A stretch of DNA of 24,790 nucleotides from positions 1-24,790 of IMG/VR virus record IMGVR_UViG_3300044825_000017. One strand, written 5' to 3'. The DNA comes from a virus. The notes beneath the pieces were generated by a model. It searched no databases. It had not been told where the DNA came from and saw only the letters and a list, made by a program, of their open reading frames with translations. Shown here in pieces: positions 1-19,357 of the stretch. The position numbers were made by a program, and so were the translations under genes. Positions within the stretch are counted from its first letter, which is position 1, and each line of letters opens with the position of its first letter.

Positions 1-11
1 GGGCCACTCAT
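1..11 (-). CDS. Possible start of the next gene (truncated at window edge)
   Basis: ATG at 11-9 overlaps the phosphoesterase stop (ATGA) and reads Met-Ser-Gly before the window ends. This is the coupling style used throughout, but three codons are too few to show that a gene exists. Confidence 0.25.
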
Positions 12-961
12 ACTTTTATGAGCTTCCCTCGAAACTCAATCACATTGTCAGCAAACCTGTGGACAAGTTCCGGCCACAATAACTGCCCGTCTACAAGCGT
101 CAACACAGCAAAACCCGAGCGCCAGTTGAGTGGGTTCTCTTCCGTGTAGTCCCTAAACTGCGGGCCTTCCGGGTCAGCCAACGTGCCAGTGTCTACACCA
201 AACCTTGTGCCGCCGTAGTCTGAGAACGGGGTAACTCTCAGCGAGTGCAAGTGGCCGGTGACGATGCTTTTACCGGACCACATGGTGTTATTGTGTGTGG
301 CATGAATCCCGCCCTTAAACCTGTGCTTTACGACCACGTTATCGTTGACCCAAACCGACCAAACTGGTTGCCATTTGGCGAAGTGATCTTTTAGACGGAA
401 CCCCGCTACCCGCTCGAACTCCGGAGCACCGTTAGCCAGCCGAGACTCAAACCTGGCATCGTGGTTGCCCAATGGCCAGATGAGCTTGCAGTTAGATTTA
501 ACTAGCGACTCGATCTCTTCTAGTGAGCTTTGGCAGGCTTTCAGCTCCTCTATCACAGAGGGAACCTTTTGCCACATAATGCGTGGATGGCGGCTAATGC
601 TGGCACCGTCGAAAGCGTCACCGTTGTTAATGACAGCAACAGGCTGCAGCTCTTTTATCGCCCAGAGTAGACCCCTGAAGGCTGTGGTGCGTATCCCTGG
701 CCAGAAGTGAGCGTCAGAGAAAACCAAAACGGTTCCGTTTCGGATGCCAAGGTCTACTTTATTAGGGTAAACCCCACCTACAGATTGGAAAGAATTGTTC
801 TTTTCTTGGTGCTTGGCTTTCAGGGTTATGTTGTACCGAACCTCGATATTTCTTCTGCGATACATGACATTGCGGATAGTCTGCCCCAGCTCTTTTGCCA
901 CCTCCGCGCTAGAACCTAATCGCTCCCAAGTCTGGATGAATAACTTATCGTCCGGTTTCAT
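8..961 (-). CDS. HTH-metallophosphoesterase (317 aa)
   Basis: The ATG at 961 has GAGG six bases upstream, so I reject the 11-residue longer start. Residues 5-50 look like a helix-turn-helix (FIQTWERLGSSAEVAKELGQ, IRNVMYRRRNIE). The rest is a calcineurin-like phosphoesterase with metal motifs in order: SDAHFWPG (82-89), NGDAFDGAS (113-121), GNHDARFE (165-172), KHRF and IHATHN (212-224), and GHLHS (236-240). Residues 259-283 (GTLADPEGPQF, NPLNW) are a conserved-looking tail. The HTH fusion suggests a nucleic-acid substrate such as phosphodiester ends, but phosphatase activity on other substrates cannot be excluded. It is complete in the window. Confidence 0.88.
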   Translation of the reverse strand: MKPDDKLFIQTWERLGSSAEVAKELGQTIRNVMYRRRNIEVRYNITLKAKHQEKNNSFQSVGGVYPNKVDLGIRNGTVLVFSDAHFWPGIRTTAFRGLLWAIKELQPVAVINNGDAFDGASISRHPRIMWQKVPSVIEELKACQSSLEEIESLVKSNCKLIWPLGNHDARFESRLANGAPEFERVAGFRLKDHFAKWQPVWSVWVNDNVVVKHRFKGGIHATHNNTMWSGKSIVTGHLHSLRVTPFSDYGGTRFGVDTGTLADPEGPQFRDYTEENPLNWRSGFAVLTLVDGQLLWPELVHRFADNVIEFRGKLIKV

Positions 962-1298
962 TTTTCGCCTCAAAAATGAGACGCTCAAGTACATTTATTA
1001 CTTGGTGCTCTGTGGCGCCTAGCACCACATCGTCAGCCTTTGCGTCTCGTGCAACTTCTATGAGATCAAATAGAAAAACGTGCAAGACCTCATGAAGTGC
1101 CGTCTTGCTTAAAGACTCCGAGTTGATTTCATCCCCAGCCCAGTCGCCCAAACGATAAGTAGCTAACCGAGGCTCCAACTGGCACTCGACCTCTGCCATC
1201 GCGCCACGTTGAGCAGGTTTCTTGCCACGCTCTATGCGCCAGCCAAGCAGCCCTAGCTCTCGCTGCCACTTAGCAACGTAAGCATCGAACTCTGCCAT
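945..1298 (-). CDS. SprT-like zinc metallopeptidase-fold protein (117 aa)
   Basis: The start at 1298 (MAEFDAYVAKWQRELGLLGW) gives 117 aa. A GTG at 1325 forming GTGA with the endolysin stop would add nine residues and is possible. The central motif is HEVLH (residues 69-73) in ALHEVLHVFLFDLIE, the zincin HExxH, followed by EHQVINVLERL (97-107), which may provide the third metal ligand as in SprT-like or ImmA-like families. The N-terminal WRIE strand and MAEVECQLEPRLATY fit a compact minimal peptidase. The substrate is unknown. Small phage SprT-like proteins are often found near lysis or packaging genes. The next gene overlaps it by 17 bases. Confidence 0.75.
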   Translation of the reverse strand: MAEFDAYVAKWQRELGLLGWRIERGKKPAQRGAMAEVECQLEPRLATYRLGDWAGDEINSESLSKTALHEVLHVFLFDLIEVARDAKADDVVLGATEHQVINVLERLIFEAKNETGR

Positions 1299-1321
1299 CT
1301 GACTGTCGCTAGGTCGGTTCT

Positions 1322-1831
1322 TCACGACATTTCGAGTGCTGCTGACCGAACCTCTTCTACCCTTCGCTCCCAGCCTTTTCCGAAGGTATCCCATGTTTTA
1401 AGTTCTTTTAAAAATGCCAGACGCTTATCACAGTACAAATTAATAAGGTCAGACGGAACCATAGACCGAGCAGCTTGCAAAGTGAGATTGCCGATAGCAC
1501 CATCTGGTTGCGTTCCTACGCATTCTTGTAGCCACTTGGCTGCGCGACCTGGCCCAGAATTGATAGCAGCGTCAAACACGATGTAATCAATCCCAGTGGG
1601 AAGCTCGTCGCCCTTTACCTTGTCCCAATACTTAGACTTGTATAGCGGAGCAACCTTCTCCGGCGTCAGCTCTCGCATATCCTTTTCTGTAACTGGATGG
1701 CCACACCACTCTTCCCAGACGGCTTTGGTACAGCCCAAGTTAGTGATGCCACCTGGGTCATCCTTGTGGTGAACGTAACCCCCCTCGTGCATTAGAACGT
1801 GCTGAAGCGCCTTCTTCCAGTTGTCGGTCAT
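1322..1831 (-). CDS. Endolysin: GH108 N-acetylmuramidase with PG_binding_3 domain
   Basis: A 169-aa lysozyme-like muramidase that cleaves the glycan backbone of peptidoglycan at the end of infection. The N-terminus carries the GH108 signature HEGGYVHHKDDPGGITNLG; Glu16 in HEGGY is the expected catalytic residue. Residues about 100-169 (DYIVFDAAINSGPGRAAKWL, VGTQPDGAIGNLT, RRVEEV) match the C-terminal peptidoglycan-binding type 3 domain. Full length is usual for the family. There is no signal peptide, so it depends on the holin. The ATG at 1831 overlaps the holin stop (ATGA); the frame continues upstream to 1906, but that extension is not supported. Confidence 0.93.
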   Translation of the reverse strand: MTDNWKKALQHVLMHEGGYVHHKDDPGGITNLGCTKAVWEEWCGHPVTEKDMRELTPEKVAPLYKSKYWDKVKGDELPTGIDYIVFDAAINSGPGRAAKWLQECVGTQPDGAIGNLTLQAARSMVPSDLINLYCDKRLAFLKELKTWDTFGKGWERRVEEVRSAALEMS

Positions 1832-2238
1832 TTCTTGCCTTTCATGTCGATGATCTTCTCCAACGTCCTGCCACCAAAGTAGAAGGACATGATGAGCATC
1901 CCCCATTGGCCGAGAAGCTCAACGTAGTTTTCGTTCGTGTTCTTACCGAATGCCGACATCATGGCAAAGGTGAAATACCCCGCCAGGATCGCTATAAGCG
2001 TCATAGGACGGATATTTTTGGATAGCCAGCTATCGCTACCCATATCGGCTTTTAGGCGCTCTGTGAGGTTGTTTTGCTCTACCTCAAACAGCTTGGTGTC
2101 GTTAGCCATTTTAGCTAACTCACCGTCTTGGTGGAGCTTGGCTAGCTCCGCTTGCGCTTTGGCTTTTGACTCTGGGTCAGGTAGTACCCGGTCGAGTATC
2201 TTTGACCCAACTTCAAGCAGTGGTCCTAGGGGTAGCAT
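1828..2238 (-). CDS. Holin of the 3-TM (GTA_holin_3TM) family
   Basis: I choose the ATG at 2238 (MLPLGPLLEVGSKI) because AAGG lies 6 bases before it; the ATG at 2244 directly abuts that site. Residues 20-70 are an amphipathic charged helix (DPESKAKAQAELAKL). Hydrophobic segments are at 78-97 (PMTLIAILAGYFTFAMMSAF) and about 105-122 (YVELLGQWGMLIMSFYFGG). The GGRTLEKI ending matches the known family signature of the 3-TM holins of phages and gene transfer agents. The protein should open the inner membrane to release the endolysin. Its stop overlaps the endolysin start (ATGA), a tight holin-endolysin pair. The N-terminal hydrophobic patch may serve as the third segment. Confidence 0.88.
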   Translation of the reverse strand: MLPLGPLLEVGSKILDRVLPDPESKAKAQAELAKLHQDGELAKMANDTKLFEVEQNNLTERLKADMGSDSWLSKNIRPMTLIAILAGYFTFAMMSAFGKNTNENYVELLGQWGMLIMSFYFGGRTLEKIIDMKGKK

Positions 2239-2500
2239 CGTCATCCTTCTTCATAAGATTGGCAGCAGCATAGGCACCCTTTCTGCCAGCGATCCCGCCA
2301 ACTGCACCAATGCACAAAAGCATCACATCTTTCAGAATGGCTAGGAATGCCTGGTCAATCGGTGCGATACGGTCCTTGTCCTGCTCTACAAACAGAACCC
2401 CACCGATAATGGCGATAACGCTAATCAGGAGAATAGCCGCCAGGGTGAGCAGAATCGCAGCCCACACCCTAACCTCAATTTCTTCTGTAGACATCCTCAT
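2213..2500 (-). CDS. Two-TM holin-like membrane protein (95 aa)
   Basis: Longer frames start at 2641, but the upstream residues are out-of-frame reading of the neighbouring gene. GGAG lies 8 bases before the ATG at 2500 (MRMSTEEIEVRVW), and membrane segments begin soon after. Segment one is about residues 12-37 (WAAILLTLAAILLISVIAII), and segment two about 51-71 (FLAILKDVMLLCIGAVGGIA). The C-terminus is charged (MKKDDDATPR). This fits a class II-like holin or antiholin, the class that has two membrane helices and forms or controls holes in the inner membrane. The 3-TM holin gene follows with a 26-base overlap, so this may be its partner. The role is inferred from position and topology. Confidence 0.75.
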   Translation of the reverse strand: MRMSTEEIEVRVWAAILLTLAAILLISVIAIIGGVLFVEQDKDRIAPIDQAFLAILKDVMLLCIGAVGGIAGRKGAYAAANLMKKDDDATPRTTA

Positions 2501-2577
2501 TGGGCTATCTCCGCTAAGGTGGCCATCAACAGAACGATGGATATCATCAAGAACACGAATATCTTTATCGGGGCCAT
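2497..2577 (-). CDS. Possible 26-aa hydrophobic micropeptide
   Basis: An ATG at 2577, inside the last codons of the 159-aa gene, opens a 26-codon frame. It is nearly a single membrane helix (IFVFLMISIVLLMATLA, residues 6-22) with a Lys at position 5 and a polar end (EIAQ). Its stop overlaps the next start (ATGA at 2497-2500), the junction style used by real genes here, and it fills an otherwise unexplained 64-base gap. There is no Shine-Dalgarno, so expression would need coupling from the upstream gene. It could be a small lysis peptide or a coupling leader. Existence is uncertain. Confidence 0.4.
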   Translation of the reverse strand: MAPIKIFVFLMISIVLLMATLAEIAQ

Positions 2578-3044
2578 TTGTCGTAAATGTAAGCGCCAAT
2601 GTGGTACAGGATGATCCCACCTGTAAGCACCACGACAGCAATCAGCGCACGCTCTTTCTTCTTGCGTGCTGCTTCCTCTATCCGTTTCTTTTCTGCCAAC
2701 TCAGCGGCTTTCCGGCGTTGAACGACAGCATTGTGCTCGCGCTGTATCTCGTCCCACAAGTCAGCCTGGCCAGACCAGATAAGGTGCTGCTTTAGGTCTT
2801 CCGTCATGTCGCGGATTTTCTTTGCCGCTATGACAGACTCTAGCGCCTCGGACATTGCCGATTTCTGCTTGTCTGGCAGCTTGGATCGCTCTTCTAGTGA
2901 CGCTTTTTGTACTTGGTCTTGTGCGTCAAACAGAGCCATGAATTCACCAAGGCATTCCTTGGCGTCTTTCCCTACCTGGATGGCTTGCTTGATCCCGGCA
3001 ACTGCCGCCTGTGCAGCAGCAAGAGCGACAGCAACCTCGATCAT
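2565..3044 (-). CDS. Membrane-anchored coiled-coil protein of the lysis region (159 aa)
   Basis: Residues 1-22 are an amphipathic Ala-rich helix (EVAVALAAAQAAVAGIKQA). The middle is helical with SGQADLWDEIQREHN (91-105). A strongly basic and acidic coiled coil (RRKAAELAEKKRIEEAARKK, 110-129) leads to one clear transmembrane helix (residues about 133-153) and a short tail (YDKWPR). It follows the 53-aa membrane protein and precedes the holin genes. Spanin or antiholin functions are possible, but a C-terminal anchor is unlike the N-terminal anchor of standard i-spanins. No enzyme motif is present. Similar proteins occur in other phages without assigned function. Confidence 0.75.
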   Translation of the reverse strand: MIEVAVALAAAQAAVAGIKQAIQVGKDAKECLGEFMALFDAQDQVQKASLEERSKLPDKQKSAMSEALESVIAAKKIRDMTEDLKQHLIWSGQADLWDEIQREHNAVVQRRKAAELAEKKRIEEAARKKKERALIAVVVLTGGIILYHIGAYIYDKWPR

Positions 3045-3045
3045 G

Positions 3046-3207
3046 CTAAACCTTTACTACGATTCCAATCAATAACAGTATGATAGCCCCAGCCGAGGCA
3101 ATCATAATTTGCTCTAGTCTCTTTAACCTTGCGTTAATTCCTAAGTATCGTTCGGCACAAACCGCTTCGTGAACGCTTAAGCGGGTTTCAACTTCTGTAG
3201 CCATCAT
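3046..3207 (-). CDS. Small single-pass membrane protein (53 aa)
   Basis: This gene is short and easily missed. The first ATG overlaps the fibre stop (ATGA at 3204-3207), and a second ATG follows at once. Residues 11-35 read SVHEAVCAERYLGINARL then KRLEQIM, a polar amphipathic helix typical of XhlA-like and related small phage proteins. Residues 35-52 form one hydrophobic segment (MIASAGAIILLLIGIVV) ending just before the C-terminus, giving a C-tail-anchored topology. The stop lies one base before the next ATG. In related phages such proteins sit at the start of lysis cassettes, so a role in holin function or membrane attachment is likely, though not proven. Confidence 0.78.
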   Translation of the reverse strand: MMATEVETRLSVHEAVCAERYLGINARLKRLEQIMIASAGAIILLLIGIVVKV

Positions 3208-4139
3208 GCCGTCCTCTTCCACATATAGACAGTAATGTAGGGCTGAAGATTTGCGTTAGTTCCTGATGAACCAGTAGACGCAACTGTTGTTGACGTTGAT
3301 ACGGTAATACCAGTTACCGCTGAATCAGTAGTAACTCCAGCGCCATTACCTTGGTCATAGTAACCTTGGCCAATGTTTTGATATGTAACACCTTTGAGAC
3401 CGTGAACGTGGCCAGGATCGGTGACGGTTGATGTGGATGTCGCAGTGTGGTTATGACTTACAACGATGGCGTCTTTGCTACCACCAGTCTCTTCTGCCGT
3501 ATCAAATAACGGGTCACTTGCGTTAAATCCAACAGGGACTCGGCCAGCACCAAACGCAGTCCATGTACCAAAACCTAGCAATGTCCCTGGGTTGGTGGAG
3601 TTTGTAGCGTTGATATAAATCGAACCAACAGGGTATGCCGCTTGCAGGGCAGTCTGAACAAATGCAGTCGTAGCAATTTGCGTTGTGTTTGTACCGCTAC
3701 TTGCCGTAGGCGCTGCTGGAGTACCTGTAAATGTAGGCGACGCTACAGGCGCAACGTCAGTGCCAATAACAAGACCCAAATTTGAACGTGCATTAGCAGC
3801 AGTAGAAGCGCCAGTCCCGCCGTCAGCAACAGCAAGATCGGTAATGCCAGAGATAGACCCACCGGTAATTGCTACGGAACTGGCAGACTGCGTTCCCATC
3901 GTACCGATACCAAGGTTAGTCCTGGCATCGGCTGCGGTAGTGGCATTCGTACCACCACCGGCGATAGCGAGTTGGTTGCTAGTCTGATTCCCAGCTTGGA
4001 AGTCCTTTAGCTGAGACATCAACTCACGGATAGCGTTGTTCAGGTTAGCAGGAGAGCAACCCTCATCTATATTGATACCGTCAATCTCTGTGTTGTCACC
4101 CGGGGTGACGGAGAACTCGCTAATCTTTGTCTTTGCCAT
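3204..4139 (-). CDS. Short tail fibre / collar-like protein (311 aa)
   Basis: The N-terminus (ISEFSVTPGDNTEIDGINI, NLNNAIRELMSQLKDF) is a typical phage fibre attachment segment. Two related repeats follow at about residues 57-80 (GGGTNATTAADARTNLGI) and 102-124 (DGGTGASTAANARSNLGL). Residues 134-161 match the side-tail-fibre repeat (SPTFTGTPAAPTASSGT, TTQIATTAFV). Residues 169-205 (YPVGSIYINATNSTNPGTLL, FGTWTAFGAGRVPVGF) resemble the T4 gp10 C-terminal/collar domain. Two His pairs, HNH (229-231) and HVH (244-246), resemble the metal-binding HxH of short tail fibres. The C-terminus LQPYITVYMWKRT is the usual closing strand. It probably contacts the host receptor. Confidence 0.87.
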   Translation of the reverse strand: MAKTKISEFSVTPGDNTEIDGINIDEGCSPANLNNAIRELMSQLKDFQAGNQTSNQLAIAGGGTNATTAADARTNLGIGTMGTQSASSVAITGGSISGITDLAVADGGTGASTAANARSNLGLVIGTDVAPVASPTFTGTPAAPTASSGTNTTQIATTAFVQTALQAAYPVGSIYINATNSTNPGTLLGFGTWTAFGAGRVPVGFNASDPLFDTAEETGGSKDAIVVSHNHTATSTSTVTDPGHVHGLKGVTYQNIGQGYYDQGNGAGVTTDSAVTGITVSTSTTVASTGSSGTNANLQPYITVYMWKRTA

Positions 4140-9804: not shown

Positions 9805-10540
9805 TGGCGAAATGGTTGACCGTACACTGGCCTTGCGTCTGGTTCGATGCGTAAATGTCGCTCGTACTAGACTCGTCAACCTTGTTTATCGTGACAATCG
9901 CACTCGGAGTTGCTGGCCGTGTTGGGCTGGTCTGCGCTGGCAACTGCTCAAGCGTTACATCAGTCGAAGTGGTCGCCCACATAATTTGAACGTAATCACC
10001 CGCCGCCAACTGTAAATAGTAGTTAAGCGCCGCAATCAGGTGGCCATCCACCCCGCCATGACTGTTAGGAACTGAAAACTTACTATTCGACCCAGCGACA
10101 TCGGTGCCGTTCTTGCGAAACCAAATATCGATGTCTTGAATAGCAACATTGGAATTAGCAAACTGAAACGAAAACTGAATATTATAGATACCAGCGGATC
10201 GGACGGTAATCTGCGAGCTGCTAACAATCGCAACACCAACAGCGTAGTCCGTTGTATTGAACGTCACCGCATACGCAGCCGTCGTACTCGCAGCAGATTG
10301 GTCTGTAGAGTCCTGGAATGCCCCGTATGGCACCGGATCGGACATAGACGCAGCAGAGTAGGGGACAAACAGAATAAGGCTGTCTTCGCTGATCCTGGCG
10401 TCGTACAGGGTGGTTGTTGTTGCGTTGCCCGTTGCTAGCGTCAACAAACCAGTCGAGTTGATCTTGCCATCCAGAATGCGGTTGACTACCTCGGATACTT
10501 GTCGAGGTTGACCACCAGCAGGAGGAAGGCGTAGAAACAT
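9761..10540 (-). CDS. Tail-associated protein with C1q-like jelly-roll domain (259 aa)
   Basis: The N-terminal 65 residues carry a phage attachment-type segment (PRQVSEVVNRILDGKI, then SEDSLILFVPYSAAS). Residues about 75-220 look like a C1q/TNF-like beta sandwich, with AGIYNIQFSFQF (116-127), WFRKNGTDVA (140-149) and LAAGDYVQIMW (178-188) in the order found in that fold. Such domains trimerise and serve as binding heads in phage appendages. The C-terminal 35 residues are polar. The ATG overlaps the nozzle stop (TAATG). Position after the nozzle suggests a tail needle, fibre or fibre-anchor protein. The fold is inferred from pattern only; the exact tail position is unknown. Confidence 0.75.
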   Translation of the reverse strand: MFLRLPPAGGQPRQVSEVVNRILDGKINSTGLLTLATGNATTTTLYDARISEDSLILFVPYSAASMSDPVPYGAFQDSTDQSAASTTAAYAVTFNTTDYAVGVAIVSSSQITVRSAGIYNIQFSFQFANSNVAIQDIDIWFRKNGTDVAGSNSKFSVPNSHGGVDGHLIAALNYYLQLAAGDYVQIMWATTSTDVTLEQLPAQTSPTRPATPSAIVTINKVDESSTSDIYASNQTQGQCTVNHFANATADKTYRYVVLG

Positions 10541-12186
10541 TACCTGACCCCCGTCGGAGTCATGTCAACGTCTACCCCTACAGCACTGGTCCAGTTGCCT
10601 GTGGGAGTAAGCGAGATACGATGGAAGCGCCCCCTACTCCGGAGCGACACCCTGTTGTCCGAGTCAGCAGCGACAGCAGTACCAAAGGTGATACTACCGT
10701 CCAACCGTTTGCGACTTGCGACAGATACCGTTGCCGAGCCTGAGTCGATCAACGGTCTAGCAAGGCTCACAAGCGTCTCAGCACCAGCGTCTATGTCGCC
10801 AGATGTAAGCGTTGCGGTAAGGTTCGGGCCACCAAAAGATACGATCTTGGCACCATCCACCCCGCCAGCCAGCAGCTTGCCGCCAGCCCACACACGGGAA
10901 TCCAGGCTTGCAGGGACCGTCTCGATAGACGGGTAGAGTAGGGCCAGGCTTTCCAGATCAGTCGAGCTTGTGGCAATGGTTGATATGTAATCAGCAGTTG
11001 TCTCGCCCCATGACCATTTATCTAGCGCCCAGTTGTAAATAATCAGTCGTTTGCTCGCAAAGATGTCGGTGAAGCACCAAGTAACGGTCTTGTTGATCGG
11101 GTCAATCGCCGCCGACATCTCGGACAGCTTGGCAGGATCTAGGTAACTGAAGAACCACTTGTCTACTTTTTCGTTACCAATCGACCTGACAGACTGACCG
11201 TCGCAAACGTAAAAACCGTCGTCTGACAGGAAGTAAGTCATCGACCCGTTCTGTATCACGGAACGGCTCTCGTAACAGCCGAGTGACCGCGTGAGCGTGT
11301 CGAATTGGAAGAAAAGAGGAGCGCCGACGTAGGTCATCCTCGCCACAGCCCGCTCCAAAAGCACCAGCCCAAACTCGCCACCCGTCAGACCGCGAACTTC
11401 ACCGCCGTCTGGGATGTCTTGATAATCCGATTGGCTTCCAGTTCCAGAAGTCCAGTCCGTCTCGTCGTTTATGTCAGACCACTGGACACGGTTAGGATTG
11501 CCGCTCGTCTTGCCGCCAACAACAAAGTCTCTAACGGTCGTGACAAACTGAGACGTAGGCGCAGCAGCAGCAACATCCGCAAAGTTGGAGGACGTTCCGA
11601 TTGTCCAGGCTTGCAGCTTGTCCAACCCGTTAGCGGCAATCAGCACCTTCCCGAATTGGGCAAACGTCCACAAAGTTGTTTGCGAGTAAGCCGAGGAGGT
11701 ACGAGACACATCCTGCAAATACTTGTAGGTCGCAGCAGACCCGCCAGATGTGTAAGTGCCATAAGCCGTAGAGTTGATCCCATCCAAGCTGAACGAGTTC
11801 GCATTTATCACGGTAATTACATAGGTGTTACCGTTTAATTGCGTCATGCCACCGACACCGGAGATCGTGACCGATATGCCGGTCTTGAATCCGTGTCCGG
11901 TAGCGGTAATCACACAGGGATTGGCATTGGTAGCGCCGCTGATTGTGGCCGTTTTGGTTGGCCAGTAGCGGAACAAGTCGTTAGGCCCAGCAGCGAATAG
12001 CTGCGTATCCGTCAGCCAGCGTCCGACAGCGCAAGTCAGCAGGTTTTCGCTTGCAGCATTGGAGAAGTCAGCAGCAGAGGGAAGTGGACCGTAGCCAGCA
12101 GCTAAAGGCAGGACGTTCTGAGCCTCTGTTATTGCTCCAGTAATCCCAGGCTGATCCGGTAGCCACGCTGTAAAGTTGATTCTCAT
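10540..12186 (-). CDS. Tail nozzle / stabilisation protein (P22 gp10-like) with FCCH-like insert
   Basis: A 548-aa protein that should form the tail nozzle below the adaptor. The N-terminus (NFTAWLPDQPGITGAITEAQNVLP) and the propeller-like body fit podovirus stabilisation/nozzle proteins: FVVGGKTSGNPNRVQWSDIN, then FGLVLLERAVARMTYVGAP, FLSDDGFYVCDG and IIYNWALDKWSWGE. Residues about 90-150 form a separate small beta domain (TATGHGFKTG, MTQLNGNTYVI, YGTYTSGG). It resembles the domain often labelled ubiquitin-activating enzyme E1 FCCH in phage proteins, although no ubiquitin chemistry is implied. The ATG overlaps the upstream stop (ATGA). It follows the usual adaptor-to-nozzle order, interrupted here by the repeat genes. 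Confidence 0.87.
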   Translation of the reverse strand: MRINFTAWLPDQPGITGAITEAQNVLPLAAGYGPLPSAADFSNAASENLLTCAVGRWLTDTQLFAAGPNDLFRYWPTKTATISGATNANPCVITATGHGFKTGISVTISGVGGMTQLNGNTYVITVINANSFSLDGINSTAYGTYTSGGSAATYKYLQDVSRTSSAYSQTTLWTFAQFGKVLIAANGLDKLQAWTIGTSSNFADVAAAAPTSQFVTTVRDFVVGGKTSGNPNRVQWSDINDETDWTSGTGSQSDYQDIPDGGEVRGLTGGEFGLVLLERAVARMTYVGAPLFFQFDTLTRSLGCYESRSVIQNGSMTYFLSDDGFYVCDGQSVRSIGNEKVDKWFFSYLDPAKLSEMSAAIDPINKTVTWCFTDIFASKRLIIYNWALDKWSWGETTADYISTIATSSTDLESLALLYPSIETVPASLDSRVWAGGKLLAGGVDGAKIVSFGGPNLTATLTSGDIDAGAETLVSLARPLIDSGSATVSVASRKRLDGSITFGTAVAADSDNRVSLRSRGRFHRISLTPTGNWTSAVGVDVDMTPTGVR

Positions 12187-13082
12187 TGTACCGTCCAGAC
12201 GTTCGATCCTGGCGAAACTGTAGTCCAGATGTTACTACCTGCCGTAGCATCCGTCCATGTATTCGGCCCCTCGTCAGGTATAGACCAGACACCCAAAACA
12301 GTCACCGTACCGACCTCTGCCGTAGCAGACAACCCGGTAACATCCAGGTAGTTGTTACTCTCTAGCGTTACCGTTCCGAGCGCAGTAGTACCCTGCACTC
12401 CAGTAACCGGCACGACAATCAAGACATTGGCAGTCCCGATCTCGCCGGTAGCCGATACGCCAGTAAGCGGAACTACAGCCTTACCGACAACCGTTACATC
12501 GCCAACAAACCCGGTCGCAGAGACTCCAGTAGGCTCTACAACGGCTTTGGCTACAACAGTAACAGTTCCGACAGAGCCAGTTGCCGATACGCCGGTAACA
12601 GGGGCAGATATGTTGACTGCAACGGTGGCAGTACCGACCTCGCCTGTAGCCGACACACCAGTTAACGGTACGTTTGCCTTGCCAGAGACAACAACGTCAC
12701 CGACTGCGCCTGTGGCCGATACGCCCGTCACCGGCACATAGGTAAAGACGCCAGCGGTTACGGTTCCAATTTGACCCGTAGCTGATACGCCGGTTAGCGG
12801 TACATTGGCCTTGCCGACAACAGTAACCGATCCGACTTCGCCCGTGGCAGATACGCCAGTTACCGGCGCTGCGTAAACGATTGCTACCGTTGCAGTTCCA
12901 ACTGCTCCGGTCGCCTCGACACCTGTTAGTGGTACGTTAGCGGTGCCGACAACAGTAACAGTACCGACCGCACCTGTAGCAGATACGCCAGTGACAGCAA
13001 CAGTAACACCGGTCCCGCCAGACTCGAACAGCCAGCCTAGAGAACCGTTGTTTGTGCTATTAGCACCAGCGTACCAACTCAT
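12183..13082 (-). CDS. Tandem 22-aa repeat protein, probable split-off C-terminal part of the giant repeat protein (299 aa)
   Basis: Residues 1-28 start MSWYAGANSTNNGSLGWLFE, the cap motif seen inside the upstream protein (FYAGANST after module 3). Residues 29-268 are eleven units built on P-[VL]-TGVSATGxVGTVTV. Residues 269-299 hold three roughly 10-residue mini-repeats ending in NTWT, SNIWT and SNVWT. No Cys and few charged residues are present. The ATG overlaps the giant protein's stop (ATGA) and no good Shine-Dalgarno is seen, so translation probably depends on coupling. It is likely a beta-rich stalk or tip of the same appendage. Ig-like or adhesin repeats are an alternative, but the 22-aa period is too short for a complete Ig domain. 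Confidence 0.8.
   Translation of the reverse strand: MSWYAGANSTNNGSLGWLFESGGTGVTVAVTGVSATGAVGTVTVVGTANVPLTGVEATGAVGTATVAIVYAAPVTGVSATGEVGSVTVVGKANVPLTGVSATGQIGTVTAGVFTYVPVTGVSATGAVGDVVVSGKANVPLTGVSATGEVGTATVAVNISAPVTGVSATGSVGTVTVVAKAVVEPTGVSATGFVGDVTVVGKAVVPLTGVSATGEIGTANVLIVVPVTGVQGTTALGTVTLESNNYLDVTGLSATAEVGTVTVLGVWSIPDEGPNTWTDATAGSNIWTTVSPGSNVWTVQ
12279..12998 (-). repeat. Eleven coding tandem repeats of ~66 bp (22 aa)
   Basis: Each unit encodes TGVSATG or a close variant followed by a valine-rich strand. Units alternate: odd ones tend to end in V-GKANV-like sequence, even ones in hydrophobic ends such as AIVYAA, AGVFTYV and AVNISA. The next unit correspondingly starts PL or PV, giving a 132-bp dimeric period. 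Unit 9 is two residues short; units 10 and 11 are more diverged. Confidence 0.88.
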
Positions 13083-16000
13083 AACGGATATGCCCGCACA
13101 CCGGTTATCGTTAAGTAATCAAGACCAGTAACGTCACCCGCCCCAGTATAGACCAAGGTAGCAGGGCTAGACGCAGACGTTCCTTGTATCGTCAACACCT
13201 TTCCTGATGCACCAGTACCAGTCCATTGCGATACGCGCTGGGTTGTTGTGCCAAGAGCAATTGTTGTTGCACCCGTTGCGCTGTAGGTGTTCGTGATGTC
13301 TTTAAAAGTGTTATTGCCGGAGATCGTAAGGGTGCCAGCGCCGCCTTGATCAAGCGTGATGCCTGAGTAGGAGATACCGCCTCCAGTAAAAGTTTTAGCA
13401 GAGCCAGAAGTTAGGCTGATGGTGCCGGTGCCTGTGACTGTTGTGTTTGCTGGAACGCCAACGTTCCAAACAGTGCTGCTTCCAGCTAATGTCCAAGTGC
13501 CAGAGCCGACTGCAATCGTCTTGGATGTAGCCGAGTTCCCCAAAAATGCCGCAGAAGCACCCGTCATTGAGAAGTTGGACGAGGCCGCATTAAACGTCCC
13601 CGAAACAACAGTAAAGTTGTTGCTTGTCGAAAAAGCATCTTGCAACGCCACCGACCCACCGGGGCTGTTGATTGTGAAGGGCTGAGTAAACGTAACCCCA
13701 GCACTTGTAATCGTCTGACTGCCACGCCCTGCAAATGTCATCGTCCCCGTACCCGTCAGCGTAGTGCCAGTACCGTTGATCCAGTTGCCGTAGATTGCTG
13801 GTGTAGTTGTACCCGTTGCCAGCGTCATTGTGTTGCTGACAAGTCCACTCATATCAAGCGTGCCGAGGTTATACCCGGAGTTGACAGTTGCGGTTGCTCC
13901 TGTTGTTACATTGGCGTCATTAAAAATTGCCGTGTCTTGTGCAAGAGGGAAATAAATTGTGTCGGTACCGCCTCCAGATGTATTTGACCAGTTGGCTGCC
14001 CCGAATGTTCCAGTACCACCTCTCCAATAAACCGTCTTCGCCGCAGGAAACGTAATCCCGCTGTTGCCCTTGCAGTCGCCCAATCGAGTACCGCTGACAG
14101 GAGCCGCTGCACCAGCAATAGTGATGTCGCGGAAGTCAATATCGGTTAAGGATGCAACAGCAGCGCAGGTAAGAGTGCGGGTTGTGCCGATGGTATCAGA
14201 GCGCACGAACGTTCTTTGCGTTGCATTACCACCCGCAGAGAGCGTCAAAGTTCCAGTGATGGTTTGATTGGCTCTTATTTCCAATACTGCCACGCCTGAT
14301 GCAGAAGCCCCTGTTTTAGAAAGATTATTAAAAGTAGCAGACCCAGTCAAAACTAAAACTGCGCTGGCGCTGGTACTGGTATAAGAAACATTGTAAAAAG
14401 TTTGACCGCCAGAATTTAAAGTAGAGTTTGTTCCATTCAAATTTATTTGTGAAGTACCAGAAGAAAAAGTCAAATTTGTTGGGTCTGTAAAAGATAGCGT
14501 ATCGGCAATTGAAACTGTCGATGAACCCAAAGTCACTGATCTTGTATTTGTGTTATTGGAAATAAGCTGTTGGCAAGTTACGTTGTAATTGCCAGTATCA
14601 AAAGAACCGTTAGTAACGTTTAAATTAGATGAACCAATATCCAGCGCACTACCAAAAGTCCACCCACAATTAACCCCGTTGACCGTAATTGCTGACGCCA
14701 GCGTCACACCATTAGTTGTAAACGTCCTGCCAGTGCTGGAACTTGAAAGCGTAATGGCACCCGTATAAGTCCTGGTCAGGCCCGTAGCAGGTAGCGTCAC
14801 ATTCCCGTGAATACCTACAATCGCTGCGCTTCCAGCCAACGTAAGATTTCCAGACAATGGCCCAGCAATGGTCAGCGCCTTGCAACGAATGCCGCCGGTT
14901 ACTGTGTTAACTGTAGCCGTGTATGCGGTGGCGTTAGAGGCAGAGTCGAACACCACATCGTCGTGACTGCGTGGGACAGAAGCGCCTGAACTACCTCCAG
15001 AGCTTGTAGACCAACGGGCTGTATCCGACCAGTTGCCCGTTCCACCGACCCAGTAGCGCGTACTGTCAGCAGGTTTGGCAGTTAAGTACAAAGGCGCAGC
15101 AGCACTTGTAGCGGTGCTATTAGCCCCAGCGTAAAACTCACCGGGGCTTGTTGCGCTGACTGTAGTTGTGCCAAGAGCCAAGTAATCTACGCCAGACACC
15201 GCTGCACCAGCAATCGTCAGTGTGGCTGTACCTGTGACTGTGACCACGTTGCCCACCGTGCCTGTGACCGTCCAAGCGCCAAAGGTCTGTGTGGTTGTGC
15301 CAAGGGCAATGGTGTGCGCTACGGTCTTGGTGGAGGCCAACTCGGTGAATTGGTTGTTGCCGCTGATGGTCAGGGTAGATGTGCCGGTTGTGCCGCCGAT
15401 GGTGAGTTTGTTGTAGGTAACAGTTCCTCCTCCAAATGTTCTTGCAGTTGTGCTGGTATCAGACAAAACAATGTTGGCAGTGCCTTTGTAAAAAGTTACG
15501 TTTGATACCTGAAAGTTCCAGCAAGTTCCAGTGCCAGAAATTGTCCATGTTCCAGAACCCATTTTAAGTGTTGCTGGAACCGCCGTGTTTACAACAAAGA
15601 CCCCCGTAGTCACGTTATACGACACCGCATCAAACGTGCCGCTTGTAAGCGTCAGGGTTCGTGCGGAGTTGAGCGTTAGAGCGTCAGCAAGTTGTACTGT
15701 GCCTGTGGCGCAGTCGATGGTTATTGGAGTGCCAAAAGTTACGCCATTGCTAGTGATAGTTTGCGTGCCTCGACCAGAAAATGTAATTGCATTGTTTGAA
15801 CTTGATGAAGTAACTCCTGTGCCAAATTTCCAATCCGCATACACAAAATTTGTGTTTGAAGTAAAAGACAAGGTCATGGCACTGGTGCGACTAGATGCGT
15901 CAAATGTGCCAATGTTGGATGTTGTTGAAACCGTAACTATCCCAGCAGCCCCAGCGTTATCAAAAACCGCAGTGTCTTGAGCTAGAGGGAAGTTGTTGAC

Positions 16001-18091
16001 AGCAGGTGATCCACCACTTGATGTTGCCCAACCCGTATCTGTCCAGTTGACAGAACCTGCCAAGTTCCAATACACCGTCTTGGCCGCAGGGAACGTAATC
16101 CCAGAGTTCCCCCCGCAGTCACCAGCACGAGTGGGAGAAGAACCCGCAGCAGCACCGGCTATCGTAATGTCCCTAAAGTCGCAGTCCGTAGCAGAGAGGG
16201 TGCCAACGGTAAGGGTTCGGGTGGTGCCGAGGGTATCGGAACGAACGAAGATGCGGCGTACTGCTGTGGCTCCGGCAACGGTAAGAGTGCCAGAGATGGT
16301 TTGGTTGCCAATGCAAACCAATACAGTCAATCCTGCTGAAGATGGCGCAGTAACAGACAAATTGTTAAACGTACAAGAACCATTAACCTGATGGGTAGAT
16401 GCGCTTGTGCTGGTAAACGATATGTTATAGAACGAGACAGATCCTGTAATCACTGGAGTTGATCCAGTGCAATTTATCTCGGATGTTCCCGCATTGAAAG
16501 TCAAATTTGTTTGCGCTGTAAAGTTAATTGCAGATGATGTTGAAATGGTCACCGTACTTGACCCGAGCGTAATAGTCCTGACGTTGCTGTTACTAGATGA
16601 CAAAGAGCCAGCGGTAACGTTGTAGTTCTTGGTATCAAACGTGCCGTTGGTGACGGTTAAACTGCCGGAACCAATATTCAGCGCGTCGGCTAGTTCTACA
16701 GATCCCCCGTAAGAATCAATCGTCAACGTTTGTACAAATGATTTTCCTGCGCTCGTAATCGTCTGCGTATTGCGCCCAGAAAAAGTCAACCCACCAGAAT
16801 AACTACGCGTAACACCGCTTCCAAACTTCCAATCGCCATACACCGTATACGCTGTTGATCCGGCCAATGTCATCACATTTGTCCGTGTGGACATATCAAT
16901 GGTGCCGAAATATACAACTGGCGAGTCTAGCGTCACTGTAGCCGACGTATTCAGCCCCGTGTTTTCGATAACAGCCGTGTCTTGAGCGAGTGGGAAGAAG
17001 TCCGTAGAAGGGGCAACACCAGAACCAGAAGCCCAGTTGTTGCCAGACCAGTTACCACCTGCTGCTTGATTCCAATACACCGTCTTTGGTGTACTGAACG
17101 TAATCCCTCTACATCCTCTCAAGTTACCAACCCTAGTACCAGAGATCGGTGCAGCAGTACCAACAACGTAGATGTCTCGGAAGTCTGCGTCTGTCAGGCT
17201 GGGAGTGGCGTTGACAGTGAGGGTTTGGGCTATGCCGTAGGTGACACCACGGAACCAGACACGGCGATTGCCTGCGGTTCCTGTAGTGGACAAGGTGCCG
17301 TTGATGGTTTGGCGGGAGTCGAATGTGACTGGATTTACCCCAGCCGATGCTGGGCCGGTAACAGAAAAATTATTGAATGTGTTTACGCCCTGAATTGCTA
17401 CCCCAGTAGTTGGGCTAGTAAAACTAATGTTGTAAAAAGTTAACCCACCACTGGCTATAAGCGGGCCTGCGGCAGAGCAAACAATATTTGAAGTCCCAGC
17501 ATTAAACGTCAACCCTGTGATGGTTGCCATGCTAAACGCCGCACCAGCAGTCAATGTAACCGTACTGCTCCCCAAGTTAATCGTGCGAGTATTGCTGTTG
17601 CTGGAGGATAACTGAGTTACCGTGACGTTGTAGTTAGCGGTATCAAATGTGCCAGATACAACCGTTATGGCACCAGATGATGTAAACGCATCACCAAGAG
17701 TCCAAGTTGCAGTAGAGGTTCCGGTAAACCCAAACGTTGTTGGCCCTAAAGTTTTCCCAGCCGTGGTAATAGTAAATGAGCCTGACGCAGCACGAATATC
17801 CATAGAGCCTGAATGACTCCATGTGACACCAGCGTTGAGCGTCAATCCACCATGTATGATTATCGTTCCAGTCCCAGTGACAGTCCCAGTAAAACCTGTT
17901 GTGTTTAGCGTTCTACAAATTGCCTGAGCAGTAACAGGCGTTACCGTTCCTGTTGATGCGGCGTCAAAATAAACATCATCTGCACTGGTAGGCACAGACG
18001 CGCCACCAGCACCGCCAGACGTAGTAGCCCACTTAGTACCAGCAGTGCCGTCCCAGTTCGCAGTGCCGCCGACCCAATACCTATCGGCCAT
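13079..18091 (-). CDS. Giant modular repeat protein, putative virion appendage/adhesin (1670 aa)
   Basis: The largest gene here. It is Thr/Ser/Gly/Ala-rich, almost without Lys or Cys, and looks like a beta-helix or beta-solenoid. Five modules start at YW headers (Y5, Y339, Y674, Y1013, Y1355). Headers 1 and 4 are RYWVGG type with GASVPxSxDDVxFD. Headers 2, 3 and 5 are VYW type with FPLAQDTAVF. Recurring inner motifs include QTITS, GTFDxxNYNVT, SSNSNTRTI, FYNISFTS and NQTISGTLT. Modules 1, 2 and 4 end with DFRDI followed by GITF; modules 3 and 5 end with LTISGNN then DYL. No signal peptide is visible, which fits a virion protein. AAGG lies 7 bases upstream of the ATG. Such proteins occur widely in environmental phages and are presumed structural; receptor binding is inference. 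Confidence 0.85.
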   Translation of the reverse strand: MADRYWVGGTANWDGTAGTKWATTSGGAGGASVPTSADDVYFDAASTGTVTPVTAQAICRTLNTTGFTGTVTGTGTIIIHGGLTLNAGVTWSHSGSMDIRAASGSFTITTAGKTLGPTTFGFTGTSTATWTLGDAFTSSGAITVVSGTFDTANYNVTVTQLSSSNSNTRTINLGSSTVTLTAGAAFSMATITGLTFNAGTSNIVCSAAGPLIASGGLTFYNISFTSPTTGVAIQGVNTFNNFSVTGPASAGVNPVTFDSRQTINGTLSTTGTAGNRRVWFRGVTYGIAQTLTVNATPSLTDADFRDIYVVGTAAPISGTRVGNLRGCRGITFSTPKTVYWNQAAGGNWSGNNWASGSGVAPSTDFFPLAQDTAVIENTGLNTSATVTLDSPVVYFGTIDMSTRTNVMTLAGSTAYTVYGDWKFGSGVTRSYSGGLTFSGRNTQTITSAGKSFVQTLTIDSYGGSVELADALNIGSGSLTVTNGTFDTKNYNVTAGSLSSSNSNVRTITLGSSTVTISTSSAINFTAQTNLTFNAGTSEINCTGSTPVITGSVSFYNISFTSTSASTHQVNGSCTFNNLSVTAPSSAGLTVLVCIGNQTISGTLTVAGATAVRRIFVRSDTLGTTRTLTVGTLSATDCDFRDITIAGAAAGSSPTRAGDCGGNSGITFPAAKTVYWNLAGSVNWTDTGWATSSGGSPAVNNFPLAQDTAVFDNAGAAGIVTVSTTSNIGTFDASSRTSAMTLSFTSNTNFVYADWKFGTGVTSSSSNNAITFSGRGTQTITSNGVTFGTPITIDCATGTVQLADALTLNSARTLTLTSGTFDAVSYNVTTGVFVVNTAVPATLKMGSGTWTISGTGTCWNFQVSNVTFYKGTANIVLSDTSTTARTFGGGTVTYNKLTIGGTTGTSTLTISGNNQFTELASTKTVAHTIALGTTTQTFGAWTVTGTVGNVVTVTGTATLTIAGAAVSGVDYLALGTTTVSATSPGEFYAGANSTATSAAAPLYLTAKPADSTRYWVGGTGNWSDTARWSTSSGGSSGASVPRSHDDVVFDSASNATAYTATVNTVTGGIRCKALTIAGPLSGNLTLAGSAAIVGIHGNVTLPATGLTRTYTGAITLSSSSTGRTFTTNGVTLASAITVNGVNCGWTFGSALDIGSSNLNVTNGSFDTGNYNVTCQQLISNNTNTRSVTLGSSTVSIADTLSFTDPTNLTFSSGTSQINLNGTNSTLNSGGQTFYNVSYTSTSASAVLVLTGSATFNNLSKTGASASGVAVLEIRANQTITGTLTLSAGGNATQRTFVRSDTIGTTRTLTCAAVASLTDIDFRDITIAGAAAPVSGTRLGDCKGNSGITFPAAKTVYWRGGTGTFGAANWSNTSGGGTDTIYFPLAQDTAIFNDANVTTGATATVNSGYNLGTLDMSGLVSNTMTLATGTTTPAIYGNWINGTGTTLTGTGTMTFAGRGSQTITSAGVTFTQPFTINSPGGSVALQDAFSTSNNFTVVSGTFNAASSNFSMTGASAAFLGNSATSKTIAVGSGTWTLAGSSTVWNVGVPANTTVTGTGTISLTSGSAKTFTGGGISYSGITLDQGGAGTLTISGNNTFKDITNTYSATGATTIALGTTTQRVSQWTGTGASGKVLTIQGTSASSPATLVYTGAGDVTGLDYLTITGVRAYPL
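13079..18091 (-). repeat. Five tandem ~1 kb coding modules (A-A-B / A-B)
   Basis: Boundaries taken at the header codons are: module 1, 17081-18091; module 2, 16076-17080; module 3, 15059-16075; module 4, 14033-15058; module 5, 13079-14032. Header spacing is 334, 335, 339 and 342 residues, with a final 315. Modules 1, 2 and 4 are A type; 3 and 5 are B type. The RYWVGG header starts each higher-order block (modules 1 and 4). Similarity is clear in protein and patchy in DNA, so the duplications look old. Confidence 0.8.
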
Positions 18092-18093
18092 GG

Positions 18094-18300
18094 CTACGCC
18101 TTCACATACTTAACGCCGTCAATCTCGATATATTCCGGCTCGGCTTCTACAGGCGGCGCGGTGACAACAGCGATCCAGTTATCCCGGCGCTGTTCTTTCA
18201 TCGCCTGTATCTCAGCTTCCGTATAACCGTGGTCATCCGGAAGGTGGAGAGCGTCAGCAAACTTGCCATGAGGAGTTTCAAACTCAAAATCAATCTTCAT
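18094..18300 (-). CDS. Small hypothetical protein (68 aa)
   Basis: A 68-aa acidic, soluble protein. The N-terminus reads MKIDFEFETPHGKFADAL, a helical TEAEIQAMKEQRRDNWIAV lies in the middle, and the end is EYIEIDGVKYVKA, which looks like a beta hairpin. GGTGG sits 7 bases before the ATG, and the stop lies 2 bases before the next start. The placement just ahead of the giant repeat protein would fit a small chaperone or attachment factor, but I do not recognise a family and nothing in the sequence proves this. Confidence 0.72.
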   Translation of the reverse strand: MKIDFEFETPHGKFADALHLPDDHGYTEAEIQAMKEQRRDNWIAVVTAPPVEAEPEYIEIDGVKYVKA

Positions 18301-18311
18301 GGCAAGCCACC

Positions 18312-18734
18312 TTAAGCAATGCGGATAATCGCGTTGGATGCGTCAGCAGTCGGGAACTGCACAACAAAGTCACCGTTCGTACTCGTCTTGTCAGCGCCAA
18401 AGTCCAGCACCGCAATCGCTTTGTTAGACTTAGACGAGTTGTATATCAGCGCACCCCTGGCCGTAAACGATGCGCTCGACCAGGTTGAGTCCGAGAAGTC
18501 TACGAAGGCAGTCGTACCGCTAGACGTAATAGACGCCCCTGTGAGCGTGTTTCCGCCCGTGGTGTACCCGCTACCGCTCGCTACCTCGTTCGTGCTGCTG
18601 TAGGCCGTTGTAGAGGCTCCCAGCGTAGCGGAGGAGGTGTACAGGGCGATCTTGATGGTATCGGTATCGAGATCGTGTGTGCCGCCGAGCAATTCGGTCT
18701 TGAAGCTGGTGCACATTGCTTGTGAAATAGGCAT
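18312..18734 (-). CDS. Putative virion structural protein (140 aa, Ser/Thr-rich)
   Basis: A 140-aa protein beginning MPISQAMCTSFKTELLGG, then TIKIALYTSSATLGAST, a GYTTGGNTL segment, WSSASFTARGALIYNSS and a C-terminal FVVQFP strand. The sequence looks all-beta and is rich in Ser, Thr, Ala and Gly. I recognise the pattern as a common podovirus protein placed between adaptor and tail genes, usually annotated only as structural. No membrane segment or catalytic motif is visible. A decoration, collar or fibre-attachment role is plausible from position, but not shown. It has a strong ribosome-binding site, GAGGTAATC, directly before the ATG. Confidence 0.82.
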   Translation of the reverse strand: MPISQAMCTSFKTELLGGTHDLDTDTIKIALYTSSATLGASTTAYSSTNEVASGSGYTTGGNTLTGASITSSGTTAFVDFSDSTWSSASFTARGALIYNSSKSNKAIAVLDFGADKTSTNGDFVVQFPTADASNAIIRIA

Positions 18735-18743
18735 GATTACCTC
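18732..18743 (-). promoter_or_regulatory. Ribosome-binding/stop-start junction GAGGTAATCATG
   Basis: The Shine-Dalgarno GAGG, the upstream gene's TAA stop and the downstream ATG are compressed into 12 bases. The same GGTAATCATG string occurs at two other junctions (7753-7766 and 5741-5752). The arrangement fixes the start of the 140-aa gene. Confidence 0.7.
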
Positions 18744-19357
18744 ACGGAAAGAGTCATTTTAAGGGGGGATGCACTGAACTCGCCTGCTTCATCTGCGGCT
18801 GTCAGCGCAGCAACCGCCCGGTTATACAACGCACCCCAAGTCTGCAACCTGGCGTCGTTCATTAGATACGGCTCAGCTTCTCCCAATGCCGCATAAAGCA
18901 GAGCATCCGGGCATTGCTGTAAGAACACATTGGTACTTACCGAATCCGATAGGAACGTCGGAGCTGCGTAGTACAGCATTTGAATCGTGTAAGTGTTGTC
19001 CGGGATCGGAGCAAACTGGAATTCAGCCGATAGGATGGTGTAGTTCACCGGCTTACCGGATTCCGTTGTACGAGCGTTCCTGGTAAACGTCGAGGGGGTC
19101 ATGTACATAACCGTGATCGACGGGTCGTTTACGAAGAAAATGTCTCGGAGTTCCAGGAAGTCAGTCGGAAGCCCGACCGTAGCATCGCCGCCCGTGGTAG
19201 TGGTGGTGGCGACTTTTAGCATCTGCCGGATTCGCAGTTCCCGGCGTAGCCTTACCTCTGCAAGCTGAATGAAATCAGGAATCTGTGACGTAAGGTCACT
19301 TCTTGCGAGATAGTTTGCGATGCTTGTTTTTAGATCGCTGTATGTTGTCAGGGCCAT
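18737..19357 (-). CDS. Head-tail adaptor protein (SU10 adaptor-like)
   Basis: A 206-aa protein beginning MALTTYSDLKTSIANYL, followed by FIQLAEVRLRRELRIRQM. This N-terminal helical pattern is characteristic of adaptor (connector) proteins of SU10-like and related podoviruses, which form a ring under the portal and bind the tail nozzle. A central part has LPTDFLELRDIFF and a PDALLYAALGEAEPYL helix towards the C-terminus, as in the family. The start lies 62 bases inside the glycosyltransferase gene; the N-terminal motif begins at this ATG, so I keep it. A GGGATGA element lies upstream but at long spacing. The gene ends in AGGTAA, which also forms the ribosome-binding site of the next gene. Confidence 0.87.
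   Translation of the reverse strand: MALTTYSDLKTSIANYLARSDLTSQIPDFIQLAEVRLRRELRIRQMLKVATTTTTGGDATVGLPTDFLELRDIFFVNDPSITVMYMTPSTFTRNARTTESGKPVNYTILSAEFQFAPIPDNTYTIQMLYYAAPTFLSDSVSTNVFLQQCPDALLYAALGEAEPYLMNDARLQTWGALYNRAVAALTAADEAGEFSASPLKMTLSVR

Follow-up and report, generated by a model that had tools for sequence, protein, structure and literature searches.

We analysed a 24,790-nucleotide (nt) stretch of viral DNA (IMG/VR record IMGVR_UViG_3300044825_000017, positions 1 to 24,790; hereafter the window) that carries a giant open reading frame (ORF) of 1670 amino acids (aa) at 13079..18091 on the minus strand. The giant ORF likely encodes the conserved shaft of a virion appendage, to which a tail tip is joined at a conserved cap, either fused or coupled through translation. 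Such an appendage would most probably be a tail fibre of a LUZ24/SU10-like podovirus, anchored close to the adaptor/nozzle, with a conserved shaft formed by five beta-helices in series; specificity for host contact is expected to lie in the C-terminal tail, which is variable. This tail would join at the cap WYAGANSTNNGSLGW: fused in frame in some relatives, and in the window as a second ORF that starts at the cap, is probably made by termination-reinitiation at an ATGA overlap, and would complete the last beta-helix with its first residues. What we infer is that the appendage contacts a receptor, that the tail ORF is translated by reinitiation and that the split cap assembles.

Giant ORF encodes five modules in two blocks

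The giant ORF begins with ATG and occupies exactly the coordinates given in an earlier note on this DNA, which had read it as a series of modules of about 335 aa; the YW headers at residues 5, 339, 674, 1013 and 1355 and their spacing are likewise exact. In an ungapped self-comparison of the protein, the strongest diagonals lie at offsets 335/336, 679-681 and 1015/1016, with up to 115 high-scoring 25-residue windows compared with at most 16 on any diagonal in five shuffles, so that the periodicity stands far above the shuffled controls. Shorter motifs recur with the headers: FPLAQDTA at residues 366, 701 and 1381, DFRDI at 303, 638 and 1319, GITF at 329, 664 and 1345, TISGNN at 908 and 1589, and DYL at 969 and 1658.

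Alignment of the five modules resolves two types of N-terminal half and two types of C-terminal half. Type R is common to modules 1 and 4 (67% in the first 60 alignment columns) and type V to modules 2, 3 and 5; type a is common to modules 1, 2 and 4 (about 40-75% by segment) and type b to modules 3 and 5 (45-54%). Identity between types is about 16-31%, compared with the higher values within types. The order R-a V-a V-b R-a V-b was also recovered by a search with four half-type profiles, seeded from the window and iterated on relatives. The giant protein is two blocks, R-a V-a V-b and then R-a V-b, each of which opens with an R header and closes with a b half; the A-A-B / A-B plan with two header and two ending types, proposed in the earlier note, is upheld by the module alignment, the half trees described below and the profile search.

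All five modules are encoded on the minus strand, and the profile search places their halves as follows. Module 1 (residues 4-337; 17081..18082) has its R half at 4-143 and its a half at 147-337, and module 2 (residues 338-672; 16076..17080) its V half at 338-480 and its a half at 483-672. Module 3 (residues 673-1011; 15059..16075) combines a V half at 673-814 with a b half at 818-1008 and carries an internal cap, FYAGANST. Module 4 (residues 1012-1353; 14033..15058) returns to an R half at 1012-1159 and an a half at 1162-1353, and module 5 (residues 1354-1670; 13082..14032) has a V half at 1354-1494 and a b half at 1498-1669 without the final cap.

No match above cut-off was found for the giant ORF in Pfam, PHROGs or NCBIfam, so no sequence family marks it as a beta-helix protein, and a sequence search of the PDB set returned nothing meaningful. 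DUF881 and PRK02227 appeared as sub-threshold matches only and were rejected as chance.

Last module is split at a conserved cap

Complete b endings close with the cap. The window's last beta-helix is cut short, and its final ~17 residues (WYAGANSTNNGSLGWLF) open the 299-aa tail ORF at 12183..13082 (minus strand), which continues with 11 repeats of about 22 aa (TGVSATGxVGxVTV, with motif starts at 31, 53, 75 ... 249) and ends in a Trp-rich C-terminus. The two ORFs share an ATGA stop/start overlap at 13079..13082, the tail ORF lying in the -1 frame. Comparison of junctions, together with the cap strands in the model of a fused relative, identifies the start of the tail ORF, MSWYAGANSTNNGSLGWLF (13026..13082, minus strand), as the missing end of module 5. 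The rule that a b ending closes each block had missed the contribution of the next ORF, which completes the last b ending.

The split recurs among relatives: of 71 distinct terminal junctions, 26 are split at this same position and the other 45 are in frame. Each of the 26 split junctions has ATGA, TGATG or TAATG just before the cap, the stop/start overlap expected of a termination-reinitiation pair. An AGG/AGA codon resembling a Shine-Dalgarno sequence precedes the ATG by 8-11 nt in 24/26 split junctions, compared with 7/43 in-frame junctions and a background in which AGR makes up about 30% of Arg codons elsewhere in giant-family genes; the Fisher p of about 1e-10 overstates the significance of this difference, since these are related sequences and the idea arose only once the junctions had been read. 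Two papers describe ATGA/TGATG overlaps as a known coupling signal and the pairs that carry them as often encoding subunits of heteromeric complexes (PMC6728339, PMC10666635). Our literature search found no paper joining termination-reinitiation with bacteriophage tail fibres, which does not exclude one among subscription papers.

An alternative is an ordinary overlap of two operon genes, in which the WYAGANST start is a relic of an old fusion and has no structural role alongside the giant protein. Overlaps of 4 nt and 1 nt are indeed common in prokaryotic operons (PMC10666635), but the cap stays highly conserved in split versions (WYAGxNSTNNGSxGWxF) while the class of tail behind it differs, and it makes strands at the end of the beta-helix in the AlphaFold2 (AF2) model of the fused homologue L003. 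We therefore consider a mere relic unlikely. Still less probable is programmed -1 frameshifting across the split cap, which would make part of the product a fused giant-plus-tail protein. The -1 frame of all split junctions examined and the existence of homologues fused in frame would suit this mechanism, but no slippery heptamer was seen at the junctions by eye, an ATG that frameshifting does not need is kept at every split junction, and the upstream AGR enrichment fits initiation. The junction RNA has no Rfam match, and its fold is unremarkable (z -1.7), which again speaks against frameshifting. On the sequence of these junctions, termination-reinitiation is the favoured mechanism.

Whether a junction is split tracks the class of tail: TGVSATG or GQDA tails are split in 23/23 cases, and SDTATGAD tails are in frame in 20/20. 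Two pairs of relatives, L055/L129 and L006/L105, are 98% and 91% identical, respectively, over the 160 residues before the cap, yet carry different tails. The sequence beyond the cap is thus exchanged between relatives, and since different tails stand behind near-identical sequence, the cap looks like the joint of this exchange.

Tentatively, the distal tip could be a snap-on subunit, in which the first ~17 residues of the reinitiated tail protein supply the missing final strands of the last beta-helix to form a split-solenoid joint with exchangeable tips. A last coil finished by the start of an exchangeable next gene suggests how phages could swap tips and keep the shaft. Should the split cap function in this way, it would be a simple mechanism for exchanging host-contact tips with the shaft untouched, and one that serves many environmental phages in which the host-contact proteins otherwise lack annotation.

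The C-termini of relatives (L003-L270) fall into a few kinds: Phe-rich (NFLMFF, FFLMF), with Trp-rich IDDxQxPxW repeats, or ending in RSFTERRRF/RSFTGRY. Another kind of tail occurs in a 1227-aa ORF (L183, from position 1812 onward), where RaRaVb precedes an extended series of LLxKLNITNxDKIDxx repeats.

Predicted fold of the modules

We modelled block 1 (residues 1-1007) with AF2, at a mean predicted local distance difference test score (pLDDT) of 86.4. The second block was modelled from L003, which was chosen because it carries the cap and is 75% identical to the window there (mean pLDDT 87.8); its model covers the regions homologous to modules 4 and 5. The structure matches are right-handed parallel beta-helices, with borders at 1..333 for module 1, 334..669 for module 2 and 670..990 for module 3, and at 345..691 in the L003 model. 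Realignment of the predicted models to solved parallel beta-helices gave Z 12-17 over 255-304 residues per module; as a realignment of Foldseek's best chains, this is a second look at Foldseek's ranking and not an independent search. The best phage matches are the tailspikes of CBA120 (TSP1; Z 12.9 over 255 residues at 3.9 A), HK620, Sf6 and P22. The Sf6 tailspike aligns with the L003 model at Z 16.6 over 296 residues (4.1 A), spanning 348..691 and so reaching the cap. Modelling accordingly predicts that each ~335-aa module, with its Trp-rich header, is a single right-handed parallel beta-helix, and the expectation of a single fold that repeats from one YW header to the next was borne out.

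The beta-helices could instead be enzymatic tailspike depolymerases and not a passive shaft. Phage tailspikes and polysaccharide lyases are among the best structural matches, PL6 lyases matching model residues 1..333; a common fold, however, shows no function. The protein is rich in Thr, Gly, Ser and Ala, with only 6 Glu in 1670 residues, and most conserved acidic residues of the family belong to the header and ending motifs that every module repeats, which is weak evidence against catalysis. We judge an enzymatic role improbable and retain the conserved shaft as our preferred reading.

Age and variation of the module plan

Our first 80 relatives had been picked by similarity to the whole giant protein and were hence biased to the same plan. 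For this reason we resampled the family with a header DNA pattern in one sample and with the small gene upstream of the giant ORF (the partner gene, described below) as the seed of another; some loci duplicate one contig. The census of plans covers 85 distinct complete family proteins from two samples. The exact window plan, RaVaVbRaVb, is found in 50/85, and a form with a first module ~180 aa shorter that still starts with the RYW header, aVaVbRaVb, in a further 21/85, so that 71/85 keep the plan when the short form is included. Among close relatives, length varies in the first module and in the repeat tail at the C-terminus, which extends about 33-760 aa past the cap.

In the half trees, a and b separate with support 100 and R and V with support 83, and across phages the halves cluster by position and not by protein. 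Support is strong for the m2V, m1a, m3b and m5b sets; the remaining sets have weaker support or are partly split, and in the N-half tree, which was built by a quick method, three m1R rows sit outside the main m1R group. Because the halves group by position, the duplications are older than the family and not ongoing within it, with the plan fixed in close relatives.

More distant proteins show other plans. Complete proteins from the header-pattern sample include Rb (357-593 aa), RaVb (697-744 aa), RaRb and others, and the sample seeded by the partner gene includes RaVb, Rb, RaVbRb, RaVRb, RRb and RaVaVbRaVb. Several of the internal R matches that distant proteins show are weak and have no RYW header; for that reason some of them may be extra solenoid turns and not whole modules. 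The proposal that an RYW header opens a block and a b ending closes it therefore holds in the five-module family and becomes looser in distant members (RaRb, RaVRb, RRb, some of them on weak matches). The idea that block gain and loss tunes appendage length fares similarly: module and block counts do differ among distant relatives, but recent gain or loss finds no support in close relatives, where the plan is fixed. A module count that is currently evolving as a length ruler, as plans such as Rb, RaVb and RaVbRb in distant relatives might suggest, is very unlikely given the plan kept by those 71 proteins and the grouping of halves by position, and is already disfavoured for close relatives.

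The family was said to be common in environmental phages, and environmental phage contigs bear this out. One relative was found among GenBank phages (Limnohabitans phage DC31, PQ492658), and one scan of genome contigs gave a single relative, L194, which may be the same viral sequence as an IMG/VR contig.

Genomic setting

A 68-aa gene, here called the partner gene, lies 2 nt upstream of the giant ORF (18094..18300, minus strand) and adjoins an RYW-headed beta-helix gene in nearly every relative. It was detected in 134 of the loci searched, more often than any other neighbour, including loci where other window genes are weak or undetected, and in a scan seeded by the partner gene the next gene encodes an RYW-headed protein in 54/56 informative loci. 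We can only guess that it is an adaptor or assembly helper. In DC31, as in the window, the partner gene stands directly upstream of a giant homologue, which is 47% identical over the matched length and has the half order RaVaVbRa as far as the record reads. DC31 has a long tail of ~203 nm (PMC12195039); the cassette therefore crosses tail types and is not tied to one. The homologue is unannotated at 5-4120 of the DC31 record, where two small opposite-strand hypothetical genes are called instead, a gap in annotation that perhaps reflects a homologue running over the start of the record. Together with the RYWVGG header and the WYAGANST cap, the partner gene offers a sequence handle for finding such proteins.

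The giant ORF sits between an adaptor gene and a nozzle gene. On the upstream flank, a head-to-tail adaptor of the SU10 adaptor family (18737..19357, minus strand) matches Pfam PF24175 (E 5.6e-36) and the SU10 adaptor 7z47 (E 3.8e-12), and a 140-aa protein matching phrog_644 (18312..18734, minus strand) lies between it and the partner gene. On the downstream flank is a nozzle/stabilization-type protein matching phrog_3287 (10540..12186, minus strand). These flanks support a fibre slot, so that the appendage role suggested earlier is now argued from position and fold. Portal and scaffold genes were also identified, and the major capsid protein is related to LUZ24-like phages and shares as much as 77% identity with GenBank records. 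These genes assign the window to a LUZ24/SU10-like podovirus, a short-tailed phage of freshwater type.

Several observations weigh against reading the giant ORF as a shaft coupled to its tip at the cap. Foldseek alone found no match in the PDB below E 0.7 for block 1, and the fold assignment draws on AF2 confidence together with the realignments of Foldseek's best chains. The model of block 2 is that of L003, a relative with a fused cap. The junction counts are phylogenetically non-independent, and in the window CGG, not AGR, is the Arg codon ahead of the ATG, which makes its junction one of two exceptions among the split ones. The location in the virion is inferred from position and fold.

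Other features of the window were noted in passing. Residues about 79-155 of the nozzle-type protein match E1_FCCH of ubiquitin-activating enzymes above the Pfam cut-off, as well as E1 chains in the PDB, probably through a shared small beta-barrel. A 311-aa protein at 3204-4139, with a T4 Gp10 C-terminal domain (PF21939) and weak tail-fibre matches, is a second candidate appendage protein. The low-coordinate end (1-3044, minus strand) encodes a lysis-type endolysin (phrog_315) and holin (phrog_3427) and a metallophosphoesterase (phrog_221).

Comparison with known systems

A close positional counterpart is SU10 (Kuravirus), in which the adaptor gp11, the fibre proteins gp12, gp13 and gp16 and the nozzle gp17 have been described, and in which six long fibres dock on the adaptor (PMC9509320). 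The long-fibre proteins gp12/gp13 share the adaptor-nozzle position with the giant ORF, and the SU10 fibre is made of several proteins (PMC9509320); its proximal part starts with a coiled coil and not with a beta-helix as in the window protein, and no sequence relation between the two was found in the searches run. Near the same slot, phiM5 has a putative host-binding fibre detected in the particle proteome, a positional analogue only, and Venkman has several fibre/adhesin genes at the corresponding slot.

The bacterial beta-helix adhesins Vag8, pertactin, HxuA, EtpA and Fap2 have a solenoid fold similar to that of the modules but are cell-surface or secreted bacterial proteins, and no sequence relation of the giant protein to them was found; one Fap2 match extends over the two modules of block 2, but with an rmsd of 25.6 A it is no real superposition. 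A UniProt entry annotated as 'Parallel beta-helix repeat' from an uncultured Caudovirales phage (A0A6J5T8W4) has a predicted structure at TM 0.86 and 55% identity to L003 block 2; it is a metagenomic sequence for which no function is described.

Beta-helix tailspikes are well known, as are modular tail fibres. For five tandem beta-helices with a defined order of half types, a small partner gene and a tip at one conserved cap, we found no earlier description. The tailspikes of P22, Sf6 and HK620 and TSP1 of CBA120 resemble the window modules in the predicted fold of a single module and are likewise coded among tail genes. They are trimeric enzymes or receptor binders with one central beta-helix per chain; unlike them, the window protein strings five helices in one chain.

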